A DNA stretch of 25,375 nucleotides from a virus, in the IMG/VR virus record IMGVR_UViG_3300035070_000305, positions 1 through 25,375 of that record; one strand, 5' to 3'. Numbering within the stretch: position 1 is the stretch's first letter; every line of letters starts with the position of its first letter. The position numbers were made by a program, and so were the translations under genes. The notes beneath the pieces were generated by a model, which was not told the DNA's origin, did no database searches, and was given only the letters and a program-made list of their open reading frames with translations. Below are positions 22,218-25,375 of the stretch, in pieces.

Positions 22218-22701
22218 TATAAAGGGTAAAGCTTATGTCATGGTCAACGAACGTATAGCTTATTTCCGTCAGCTATACCCACAAGGTACAATTATTACTG
22301 AGTTGCTATCATCTGTTGATGGCACTCACACTTTTAAAGCTACAGCAATTAATGATGGTGTAATTTTAGCTACAGGTCATGCCTCTGAAAAAGATGGATC
22401 TACTTTTATCAACAAAACTTCAGCAATAGAAAACGCAGAAACCAGTGCAGTTGGAAGATGCCTTGGAATACTTGGAATTGGAATTGATGCCTCTATAGCT
22501 ACTGCTGAAGAAGTTGGTAACGCAGTAGCACAACAAGAAGCTAAGCCAGCAAAAAAAGCACCAAGTAAAAATATTGATGCCGTTAAAAAAGATATGGCAA
22601 AGGCTCACCAGGAAGGCGAGCTTAAACAATTTTTCTTTACATTAGATCCTGATACACAAGACGTGCTTAGGGAGTATGCGAATGACCTTCGCTCATCTTA
22701 A
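22192..22701 (+). CDS. Probable single-strand annealing protein (Rad52/Erf-like)
   Basis: 169 aa from the ATG at 22192 (GGGAG seven bases before). KGKAYVMVNERIAYFRQLYP, then TIITELLSSVDGTHTFKATA, TGHASEKDGSTFINKTSAIE and ENAETSAVGRCLGILGIGID. The order of a beta-rich core ending ETSAVGRxLGxLGIG is shared with phage annealing proteins of the Erf/Rad52 type. The next gene is an exonuclease, as in Red pairs. Residues 120-140 are a Lys/Ala linker, then a helical tail. Family call is inferred. Confidence 0.62.
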   Translation: MSKKLKTVDIKGKAYVMVNERIAYFRQLYPQGTIITELLSSVDGTHTFKATAINDGVILATGHASEKDGSTFINKTSAIENAETSAVGRCLGILGIGIDASIATAEEVGNAVAQQEAKPAKKAPSKNIDAVKKDMAKAHQEGELKQFFFTLDPDTQDVLREYANDLRSS

Positions 22702-23242
22702 AGATAACAGAAGGCATAAGGTTGTAACGGCTTCTAATGCTTGGAATGCTATTTATGATCGCAAGAAACTTTGGAGGGAGATGACGTTTAGAGCTGCTCC
22801 CTTCCAAGGCAATGAAATGACTCAGTGGGGAAATGACCATGAGCATGTTGCTATATCACAATTTGAAAAATTTATTGATGACATCGTTGAGCCTGGAGAT
22901 AAATTAGTTGTGCATCCAGACCTACCACTTGCTGGCACGTGTGACTTTATGTTGCATGGTGTATGCGGTGAGGTAAAGTGCCCGTTTACTCAAAGGATAT
23001 ATCCTGAAATACCTGAGCGGTACTACTTCCAGATGCAAGTACAGATGTTTGTTAATAACGCTATTGCATGCCACTTCGTTGTGTGGACTCCAAACGAGTT
23101 TCATACCGAGTTGGTGCAAAGAGATCAGGACTTTATTGACTGGTATATTCCTTTTGCAGAGGAATTTATTGGTTATGTAAACTCTGATAAAGAACCACCC
23201 AGGTGGAATAAGAAGCCTGTTTATCAACCAAAGGAGAAGTAA
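22682..23242 (+). CDS. YqaJ/lambda-type 5'-3' exonuclease
   Basis: 186 aa from the ATG at 22682 (GGAG seven bases before); an ATG six bases earlier is too close to the SD. QWGNDHEHVAISQFE gives E54, LAGTCDF gives D88 and GEVKCP gives E97-x-K99, the PD-(D/E)XK catalytic set. YYFQMQVQMFV is the QxQ motif of YqaJ/lambda exonuclease. It would chew 5' ends of double-stranded DNA to give 3' tails for the annealing protein. It overlaps that gene by 20 bases. Near the usual length for the family. Confidence 0.88.
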   Translation: MTFAHLKDNRRHKVVTASNAWNAIYDRKKLWREMTFRAAPFQGNEMTQWGNDHEHVAISQFEKFIDDIVEPGDKLVVHPDLPLAGTCDFMLHGVCGEVKCPFTQRIYPEIPERYYFQMQVQMFVNNAIACHFVVWTPNEFHTELVQRDQDFIDWYIPFAEEFIGYVNSDKEPPRWNKKPVYQPKEK

Positions 23243-23243
23243 A

Positions 23244-23966
23244 ATGAAACAAACTAATCAAGTCTTAATGACCAATGATTATGCTAAATTTAGTTATATA
23301 TCAGGAAACAGAAACGTAAATGATCTACATATCAGACGTTTAAAAGACTCTATACAAGAAAAGTACATAAGCGTACCAATTATTGTTAATGAGAAACACC
23401 AAATCATTGATGGTCAACATAGATTTCAAGCTATTAAAGAGTTAAATAAACCAGTTTATTATATTAAAGTTGATGGGCTGAAGCTTCCAGATGTGCATCG
23501 CTTAAATACTAATACTAAAAACTGGAGTGCCGATTCTTATCTGGATGGGTATTGTAAGTTAGGTAAGGAGCAGTATTTACTTTATAAAGATTTTAAAGAT
23601 AGGTTTGGTTTTGGTCACAATGAAACTCAAGCTTTATTATCCAACAAAAGTCGTATGGGAGGGACTAGAAACATAAAATTTAAAGACGGTACTTTTGTTA
23701 TTGAGGATTTAAATTTAGCAACAAGAAATGCAGAAAAAATAACTATGTGTTCTGAGTATTATGAAGGTTATAAAAGAAGATCATTTGTTTATGCCATGCT
23801 AGATTTGTTTGACAATGATGATTACAACCATGCAGAGTTTTTAAACAAACTATCGTTTCAGTCAGTTAAATTACAAGACTGTACAACAATAGATCAGTAT
23901 TTAGTTTTGATAGAAGATATTTATAATTTTAAAAGAACTAAAGCAACCAAAGTAAGATTTTATTAA
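23244..23966 (+). CDS. ParB-domain protein
   Basis: 240 aa. Residues about 15-75 carry a ParB/Srx-type N-terminal domain: GNRNVNDLHIRRLKDSIQEK, then SVPIIVNEKHQIIDGQHRFQ and AIKEL. The IIDGQHRFQAI motif is the CTP-binding/nuclease-like GxxR box. The remaining 160 residues (LNTNTKNWSADSYLDGYCKL, then HNETQALLSNKSRMGG) are known from phage proteins of this type but have no clear role. It lies between the exonuclease and the SSB-like gene with an AAAGGAG site, so it is probably linked to DNA processing. Confidence 0.78.
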   Translation: MKQTNQVLMTNDYAKFSYISGNRNVNDLHIRRLKDSIQEKYISVPIIVNEKHQIIDGQHRFQAIKELNKPVYYIKVDGLKLPDVHRLNTNTKNWSADSYLDGYCKLGKEQYLLYKDFKDRFGFGHNETQALLSNKSRMGGTRNIKFKDGTFVIEDLNLATRNAEKITMCSEYYEGYKRRSFVYAMLDLFDNDDYNHAEFLNKLSFQSVKLQDCTTIDQYLVLIEDIYNFKRTKATKVRFY

Positions 23967-23981
23967 TTAAGGAGAAATAAC

Positions 23982-24278
23982 ATGGCAGTATTAGGTGTAA
24001 GTTTAAGAATTGACGTAACAAAGATTGACAAAGAAAAGCTTTATAAAGGTGCTAAGGGTACTTACCTGGACGTAACTACTTTTATTGATACGGATACTCC
24101 AGACCAGTATGGCAACAATGGTATGGTAACTCAGTCAACTACACAGGAAGAACGTGAGGCTGGCGTTAAGGGTGCTATCTTAGGTAACAATAAAGTGTTT
24201 ATGAATAAAGGTGCTGAGGGATCAAGTACGCCTACAGCTGCACAAGATTTAGAACAGTTTGAGGATGCCCCTTTCTAG
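23982..24278 (+). CDS. SSB-like single-stranded-DNA-binding protein (candidate)
   Basis: 98 aa. SLRIDVTKIDKEKLYKGAKG, then TYLDVTTFIDTDTPDQYGNN and VKGAILGNNKVFMNKGAEGS, ending DLEQFEDAPF. A compact beta-rich core followed by a polar linker and an acidic tip ending in Pro-Phe is the layout of SSB proteins, whose tail (D-D-I-P-F in E. coli) recruits DNA repair proteins. Ordinary OB-fold SSB signatures are not evident, so the call rests on tail, size and the recombination operon. TTAAGGAGAAATAAC ribosome site. Confidence 0.55.
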   Translation: MAVLGVSLRIDVTKIDKEKLYKGAKGTYLDVTTFIDTDTPDQYGNNGMVTQSTTQEEREAGVKGAILGNNKVFMNKGAEGSSTPTAAQDLEQFEDAPF

Positions 24279-24288
24279 GGACTAAGGT

Positions 24289-24376
24289 TACACTGCCCTC
24301 AAGAGGCATATGCCTACCATTATAGTTTGGAATTGGTTCAGACTATAATGACATTGAGAACTTGAGGGTTAGTGTA
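24289..24376 (+). ncRNA. Three-way-junction RNA structure, candidate
   Basis: The outer stem joins TACACT-G-CCCTCAAG (24289-24303) with CTTGAGGG-TT-AGTGTA (24361-24376), about 15 pairs with one bulge. Inside are a short hairpin, the palindrome AGGCATATGCCT (24304-24315), and a 14-pair hairpin from CATTATAGT (24318-24326) to ACTATAATG (24342-24350) with loop ATTGG. Three wobble pairs are G-U only in the plus-strand RNA. It lies between the convergent SSB-like and pqqA-like genes, so it may be a transcription-end structure. No U-run follows on either strand. Folded by eye. Confidence 0.6.
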
Positions 24377-24385
24377 TTACATGTA

Positions 24386-24457
24386 TTACTTATTCATTAC
24401 ATACATTGTTACTTCAAAGCCAAATCTCATTTCTGTAGCTGATGGTTTTGTCCACAT
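24386..24457 (-). CDS. pqqA: PqqA-like peptide, precursor of the cofactor PQQ
   Basis: 23 aa. The peptide starts MWTKP and contains RFGFEVTMY, ending VMNK, close to bacterial PqqA (usually 22-24 aa, typically MWxKPxxxxLRxGFEVTMY). Glu15 and Tyr19, the residues that the radical-SAM enzyme PqqE cross-links to make pyrroloquinoline quinone, sit at the positions known for PqqA. AAGGA lies eight bases before the ATG. It is on the opposite strand to the genes on both sides and has its own TATAAT. No pqqB, C, D or E is in the window, so maturation would depend on host enzymes. Too short for ordinary gene callers. Confidence 0.85.
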   Translation of the reverse strand: MWTKPSATEMRFGFEVTMYVMNK

Positions 24458-24489
24458 AGTAGTAGTCCTTATTGGTTAATCAAGGCTCT

Positions 24490-24495
24490 ATTATA
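24490..24495 (-). promoter_or_regulatory. -10 box for the pqqA-like gene
   Basis: Perfect TATAAT on the minus strand, about 33 bases before the pqqA-like ATG. The matching -35 is weak (CAGTAC at 16 bases). A plus-strand TATACT overlaps it (24492-24497) with TTATTG 17 bases upstream, and could serve the membrane-protein gene. Confidence 0.5.
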
Positions 24496-24548
24496 CTCTT
24501 AATGAATAATTGTACTGATGGTTATAACATGACAAAGGAGTAAGGAAA

Positions 24549-24776
24549 ATGATGAGTTATAAATTGCACACTGAAAAGAAAAAAAATGGATGGTTAATAG
24601 TTGGAGTATTAGTTTTTTTAGGAGGTTTAATTTGGCTTGGTATTAATTCTATTCCAGACAAAGCTTACCATTGCCATAAGAATGGTTACTTGTTTGAGTC
24701 AATGAATGAAGCAAAAAACATTTTTACCAAAACTAAAAAAAGATGTATTAATATTAGAGACATAAAACCTCAATGA
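24549..24776 (+). CDS. Small single-span membrane protein
   Basis: 75 aa. A basic start (HTEKKKNG) is followed by WLIVGVLVFLGGLIWLGI at about residues 15-32, a single membrane span, then a polar tail with AYHCHKNGYLFESMNEAKNI and a Cys (68). ACAAAGGAG ribosome site with a second AAGGA nearer the ATG. Its last bases overlap the nuclease gene (ATGA). It is likely in the inner membrane with the tail outside; a superinfection-exclusion role is only a guess. Confidence 0.65.
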   Translation: MMSYKLHTEKKKNGWLIVGVLVFLGGLIWLGINSIPDKAYHCHKNGYLFESMNEAKNIFTKTKKRCINIRDIKPQ

Positions 24777-25213
24777 ACTCTTTTCGCAAAGACTTAGAAA
24801 GAGGGATTATTATTGAAAAAGAAGTGTTATCTATTCTTAAAATAAAATATCCTTCAGCAAGTCTAGTGGATAAATGGAAAGGTTACGATATATGGATACC
24901 GGAAATACATTGTGGTGTAGAAGTTAAGTATGATCCGATGAGTACATCTACAGGTAATATAGTGATAGAAATTGAGATGTATAACAAACCATCTGGTCTT
25001 ATGGCAAGCACTGCAAAGTATTGGGTGTTTTATGATGATCATCAATTTAGAATTATGTCAAAGGATGATATTATTAATTGTATTTTTTTAAACAAATATC
25101 AACACACAAGCTTTGTTGGAAAAGGTGATACAGTAGGTAAAAAAGCGTTCTTAGTAAAAAAAGAACATTTGTTTAAATATGGAAAAAAACTAGGAGATAA
25201 AAATGGCAGATAA
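24773..25213 (+). CDS. PD-(D/E)XK nuclease-like protein
   Basis: 146 aa. E15 or E17 in a helical start, D39 in KGYDIWIPE, and E50-V-K52 in GVEVKYD form the (E)...D...ExK catalytic pattern of restriction-enzyme-fold nucleases; a later NIVIEIEMYNKPSGLMAS and KYWVFYD are typical of such phage nucleases. It starts in an ATGA overlap with the membrane gene and ends 11 bases inside the DUF3310 gene. It probably acts on DNA during recombination or host DNA breakdown. Confidence 0.7.
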   Translation: MNSFRKDLERGIIIEKEVLSILKIKYPSASLVDKWKGYDIWIPEIHCGVEVKYDPMSTSTGNIVIEIEMYNKPSGLMASTAKYWVFYDDHQFRIMSKDDIINCIFLNKYQHTSFVGKGDTVGKKAFLVKKEHLFKYGKKLGDKNGR

Positions 25214-25375
25214 CATAAACCCGGAGCATTATAAGGCAGGTGGTATTGAAACTATAGAGTATCTGAAAGCCAAGTTAAGTAGTGCTGAATTTTATGGCTA
25301 CCTTAAAGGCAACGCCTTAAAGTACATTAGCCGGGAAGGTTTAAAGTCTGAAAAGCTTTTAGATAAGATTGAAGA
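25203..25375 (+). CDS. DUF3310 protein (partial, right edge)
   Basis: 57 codons visible before the window ends. NPEHYKAGGIETIEYLKAKL, then SSAEFYGYLKGNALKYISRE and GLKSEKLLDKIE. The HYK.GGIETIdylkaKl....f.G.lkGNalKYisR pattern is DUF3310, a family that includes T7 gp1.7 nucleotide kinase. Activity here is inferred from the family. It overlaps the nuclease gene by 11 bases and has AGGAG before the ATG. Confidence 0.85.
   Translation, partial: MADNINPEHYKAGGIETIEYLKAKLSSAEFYGYLKGNALKYISREGLKSEKLLDKIE

Follow-up and report, generated by a model that had tools for sequence, protein, structure and literature searches.

What stands between a phage recombination operon and a convergent pqqA gene where no ordinary terminator separates them? 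The question was raised by a 25,375-base IMG/VR viral record (the window, that is, the whole stretch of DNA analysed), in which the operon's last gene ends at 24278 and its convergent neighbour, the minus-strand pqqA, at 24386. A D-x-P-F-type C-terminal tip is a feature of single-stranded DNA binding proteins; since this tip is invariant in the aligned sequences of the 98-aa product of the upstream gene (17/17), we call the gene SSB-like, and the protein has no Pfam match. For the gap between the two genes, the original prediction had proposed an RNA with a 15-pair closing stem, a small palindromic hairpin and a 14-pair hairpin, lacking a U-run and hence not a normal terminator. Folding of 24289-24376 reproduced all three helices, namely P1 (15 pairs with one bulged base), P2 (a 4-pair palindromic hairpin of the GGCAUAUGCC type) and P3 (14 pairs), and the features of the locus are listed in Table 1. 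The upper part of P1 is GC-rich, and the stem encloses a branch of 40-58 nt. The plus strand folds at -40.1 kcal/mol (z -8.0), with 0/200 shuffles as good, compared with -30.4 (z -5.2) for the minus strand. A terminator scan of 23000-25375 found no terminator-like site, in agreement with the absence of a U-run, and by inspection 3-5 U occur in the 8 nt 3' of the GC part of P1.

Table 1. Features of the element and its neighbourhood in the window.
Feature	Position	Strand	Basis
YqaJ-type exonuclease gene, upstream of the 98-aa gene	22676-23242		
98-aa gene, SSB-like, last of the recombination operon before the element	23982-24278	+	D-x-P-F tip
H0, small hairpin across the upstream stop codon, CCCU-UUCU-AGGG, 4-6 pairs in the window	24269-24280	+	
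P1, 5' strand of the closing stem, UACACUGCCCUCAAG	24289-24303	+	Fold; two-sided changes at pairs 5 and 6
P2, small palindromic hairpin, AGGCAUAUGCCU, class A versions only	24304-24315	+	Covariation
P3, 14-pair hairpin, hypervariable arms, pairing always kept	24318-24350	+	Two-sided changes in 10/14 pairs
P3 apical loop, AUNGG, closing A-U pair invariant, kept in 21/21 versions	24332-24336	+	Alignments
J3, conserved unpaired 3' junction strand, ACAUUGAGAA	24351-24360	+	Alignments
P1, 3' strand, CUUGAGGGUUAGUGUA, bulged base at 24370	24361-24376	+	Fold, covariation
9-nt spacer to the pqqA stop codon, TATTACATG-like unit	24377-24385	+	
pqqA, 23 aa, convergent neighbour	24386-24457	-	Pfam PqqA, E 3e-11

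Searches of IMG/VR with the 98-aa protein, with pqqA and with DNA patterns of the element yielded 71 placements of 21 distinct versions, the window included, with several loci showing one and the same contig. Counted from the contig lists, the 20 further versions stand on other IMG/VR contigs as about 37 full-length copies plus two cut ones. Together the versions show one conserved RNA fold. On a model-fitted alignment, two-sided changes were found in 14 of the 33 pairs, and the 63 two-sided cells compare with 17.1 in shuffled controls, none of 500 shuffles reaching as high; the signal was lost when partners were slid along the same alignment. Compensatory changes, which the original prediction had expected to see in relatives, occur in each helix, P3 included; pairs 5 and 6 of P1 vary as C-G/U-A/A-U and U-A/C-G, and P2 appears as AGGC/GCCU, CGGC/GCCG and CAGC/GCUG. 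Its other test, folding energy against shuffled sequence, came out likewise: the plus strand is better than its shuffles in 21/21 versions, with a mean z of -6.1 vs -3.8 for the minus strand.

Base pairing in P3 also identifies the strand. Pairs were counted outward from the loop on unaligned, unfitted sequences as far as each version's outer P3 end, so that the count shows an asymmetry between G.U and A.C and not a fixed stem length; all 283 of the 283 cells in the 21 versions are standard pairs (208 Watson-Crick and 75 G.U), with no A.C and no other combination. The presence of 75 G.U with 0 A.C indicates that the selected molecule is the plus-strand RNA, as had been proposed from the wobble pairs of the window. 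On the minus strand these G.U pairs become A.C, and that strand therefore folds poorly in most versions. The three-way junction described for the window is correct there and does not extend to the family, because the P2 arm is present in only 7 of the 21 distinct versions, the others consisting of P1 plus P3; it is thus a special, minority form of the element. Conservation of the AUNGG loop and of J3, which reads mostly CAUUGAGAA across versions, suggests recognition by a protein or a tertiary contact.

The structured RNA family is well supported, and it is new to Rfam. A covariance model built from class A sequences alone recovers all other classes with E values of 3e-8 or better. No Rfam 15 family matched the element at gathering scores, and at a relaxed E-value the best match, RAGATH-9, lay on the other strand and below the gathering cut-off (14.7 bits vs 75.2). 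The proposal of a new structured plus-strand RNA is supported. No paper found in an open-access library appears, from its title and abstract, to describe it. A blastn search of the element against 50,697 phage records returned no copy, and a second covariance model (R2), applied to 196 further loci, revealed no distant relatives (best E 0.36). A sequence recurring in L355, L357, L359, L361, L362 and L365 was considered as a relative and dismissed, as it is unmatched by R2. When bacterial and archaeal genomes were scanned for the closing-stem pattern, only chance matches came up; five stretches from the genome-contig scan, taken up as candidate host-genome copies, fold differently and are chance, as are the extra matches of a relaxed viral scan. 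The probable hosts of the carrier phages are methylotrophs with a relationship to the marine OM43 clade.

The identity of the upstream gene differs between element loci. Of the 71 placements, 67 have a distance of 10, 11 or 14 nt between its stop codon and the element, the two on the L326 contig have 1 nt, and two gave no value. As the end of an upstream gene is the constant in the context, the element is a 3'-UTR element. Downstream, a minus-strand pqqA is the neighbour in all but two contigs, and the spacer from the element to the pqqA stop codon measures 9, 18 or 27 nt in 65/71 placements, partly in TATTACATG-like units. Nevertheless, pqqA is not an obligatory partner. The L326 copy is flanked, within an operon of co-directional genes that has no pqqA, by a 92-aa gene on one side and by a 15-codon frame repeating that gene's 3' end on the other; this rules out a dependence on pqqA and weakens the earlier suggestion of an antisense regulator near pqqA. 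L035/L096, with no pqqA in the 53 nt between the element and the contig end, are suggestive only, as the contig stops there; a viral scan for the L035 junction matched its own contig alone. Two 36-bp direct repeats of the gene's 3' end flank the inserted element at L326 953-1150; the second of them comes with a ribosome binding site and an ATG of its own and overlaps the start of the next gene. The relatives L333-L335 have the same site without the element.

An insertion between direct repeats with empty-site relatives (L333-L335) would suit a DNA element, in which a single-strand hairpin serves recombination (attC-like or IS200/REP-like) and no RNA is involved, and so would the bulged base in the closing stem, the differing neighbours and the exchange of inner sequence described below. 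We nevertheless regard this as very improbable, since the tolerance of G.U without A.C and the conservation of the loop fit an RNA better. By inspection, the element ends GGTTACAC...GTGTATTAC are not the RYYYAAC/GTTRRRY ends of an integron attC site. Moreover, in 19 records, which may be fragments, the element has one placement per record, the other matches within them being its own complement only; with one copy per record, it is not a dispersed repeat, of the REP/IS200 type or otherwise. The position in the L326 operon bears on another reading, a put-like RNA acting in cis so that RNA polymerase continues through downstream stops. Its phage origin, its size of about 70-90 nt and the further plus-strand genes past the element in the window are compatible with such processive antitermination, and HK022 putRNA, of which binding to the RNA polymerase beta' zinc-binding domain is a further defining feature, is likewise a phage cis RNA of similar size. 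However, putRNA consists of two adjacent, side-by-side stem-loops downstream of and near early promoters (PMC9378689), a feature that the element, whose helices are nested and which lies where a gene block ends, fails to show, and we consider this the least probable of the readings discussed here.

The element occupies a place where relatives often carry an ordinary terminator hairpin. In the cultured OM43 phage Venkman, a Methylophilales phage with the gene order of the window, a canonical plus-strand terminator, GGGGGCTAATCGCCCCCTTTTTTT (a GC hairpin plus U7), lies between the SSB-like gene and pqqA. By a simple scan, a canonical terminator is present on one or both strands in 96 of 164 distinct non-element pqqA 3' regions vs 5 of 23 element loci; at the latter, it is on the plus strand in 5/23 and on the pqqA strand in 0/23. 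The element thus stands where relatives use ordinary terminators, which indicates a natural swap of 3'-end devices at one locus. It shares with the Venkman terminator the position after the SSB-like gene facing pqqA and a GC-bearing stem, and it differs in having no U-tract, 33 pairs in three helices and a conserved loop and junction strand, as well as in being found within an operon (L326). The bidirectional stop once proposed for this site is not borne out, as the minus-strand fold is unconserved, a U-run is absent on either side, and none of the element loci has a canonical terminator on the pqqA strand. A non-canonical intrinsic terminator, with P1 and its large internal branch as the hairpin and UUAGUGUAUU as a poor U-tract, would at least act at the very site of the terminators in relatives. 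We judge it quite unlikely, given the few U that follow the GC part of P1, the negative scan, the copy inside the L326 operon and the proper U-tracts used by relatives on related hosts.

Our best reading, offered tentatively, is that the element serves in the 3' UTR as an RNA cap that defines the end of the mRNA and needs no U-tract. Acting in cis as a structured plus-strand RNA, it would belong to the 3' UTR of the phage recombination (SSB-like) transcript, and this transcript would end beyond it by Rho or by diffuse release of RNA polymerase. The 3' end would then be trimmed by 3'-to-5' exonucleases back to the very stable P1/P3 structure, which would cap and stabilise the mRNA and prevent the mature end from reaching into the convergent pqqA unit. 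The fold, the plus strand, the position 1-14 nt past the stop codon where both ends are measurable, and the terminators in relatives all argue for this reading. In E. coli, Rho-terminated mRNA is trimmed back to a stem-loop (PMC9927376), and the gal operon stem-loops left after Rho termination (PMC9927376) have in common with the element a stable structure without a U-run. Unlike them, the element is branched, shows conservation with covariation and has unpaired parts that are conserved as well; the roles of Rho and exonucleases are here predictions of ours.

Three observations stand against a cap. A plain protective stem needs neither a conserved loop nor a conserved junction strand. In L326, where the element lies within an operon, a true transcript end would cut off the downstream genes unless a promoter follows, and only a weak 9/12 promoter match, overlapping the element, is found there. 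Finally, the exchange of cores between near-clonal phages is unexplained by simple mRNA protection. Because a cap accounts for neither the conserved unpaired parts nor the core exchange, we retain two further readings. One is a small RNA of about 90 nt, independent or derived from the 3' UTR, acting in trans via the conserved loop and junction strand. Its compact and very stable fold with unpaired AUNGG and ACAUUGAGAA, and the presence of the same inner sequence in different genomic contexts, L326 included, are what such an RNA would show, and it resembles the small RNAs derived from mRNA 3' ends in its 3'-UTR origin and stable fold. It differs from those in having no U-tail, either for Hfq or as part of an sRNA terminator, and its processing is here a prediction. 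In addition, no conserved promoter lies upstream, the sequences 5' of GGUUACAC vary between loci, the stem is the most variable part and no conserved single-stranded seed exceeds about 10 nt; on balance, a trans-acting RNA is somewhat unlikely.

The second reading concerns the core. By inspection, the inner parts of the versions fall into four classes, A (with P2), B, C and D. Between L091 (class C) and L107 (class A), 13 of 8,019 positions are changed outside the element, whereas the element itself shows differences in 26 of 75 columns. L108 (B) and L105 (C) share 98% identity across 6.5 kb, with cores that differ. The P2/P3 core thus appears to be swapped as a block between near-clonal phages, as judged from these two close pairs, both dissected as contigs, in which mixed-strain assembly may have played a part. 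Block exchange is unusual for a structural RNA and is directly testable with paired phage genomes. The constant arms of 15-20 nt could serve as the recombination sites. As dozens of related phages keep the fold with changed letters and near-identical phages swap the core, the element almost certainly has some function, the role itself being predicted. The core might be a selected specificity determinant, an allele swapped by phages within a constant frame of P1, loop and J3, for example as a means of matching or evading competing phages or an RNA-directed defence of the host, or else to determine superinfection. Four core classes within a constant frame, and different classes in near-identical genomes, are in keeping with this. 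However, phage mosaicism over the conserved arms could give the same pattern without selection, the dissection covers two close pairs, alleles and flanks from strains that coexist could have been joined in metagenome assembly, and no partner molecule is known. We therefore hold such a role to be unlikely; if true, it would make this an RNA family with a constant frame whose core allele is swapped under selection.

Several further observations were made at the pqqA locus. Many pqqA phages have a hairpin of about 10-16 pairs across the stop codon of the SSB-like gene, covarying with the codons (L300, L202, L240, L259, L118 and others), and this long hairpin may be the terminator of those phages; H0 in the window (24269-24280) is its 4-pair remnant. 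Phage pqqA is already known from Lake Baikal viruses (PMC7678222), and at least 589 IMG/VR stretches encode PqqA relatives. Regions matching pqqA are not annotated as such in the published records of Venkman (L082, MT375522), MEP301 (L116), ctXG6705 (L118), P19250A (L119) and MEP401 and MEP402 (L117 and L120), where the features under the match read 'none' or 'hypothetical protein'. Two other conserved stretches accompany pqqA: CCCCGAAGGCATATCA...GGTCCTAAGGTGAATTC downstream of the gene in L135, L152, L159, L165, L247 and L298, with no Rfam family above cut-off for the L135 copy, and GGCGTAGATTTGGTAGTTGTTACATGTAACGC...GTCGGCTTAACCGCC, about 90 nt in the pqqA 3' region of L181, L182, L215, L249 and L286, with no Rfam match for the L181 copy. 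L181 also carries a tRNA-Tyr(gta) gene at 2327-2408, about 90 nt upstream of pqqA.
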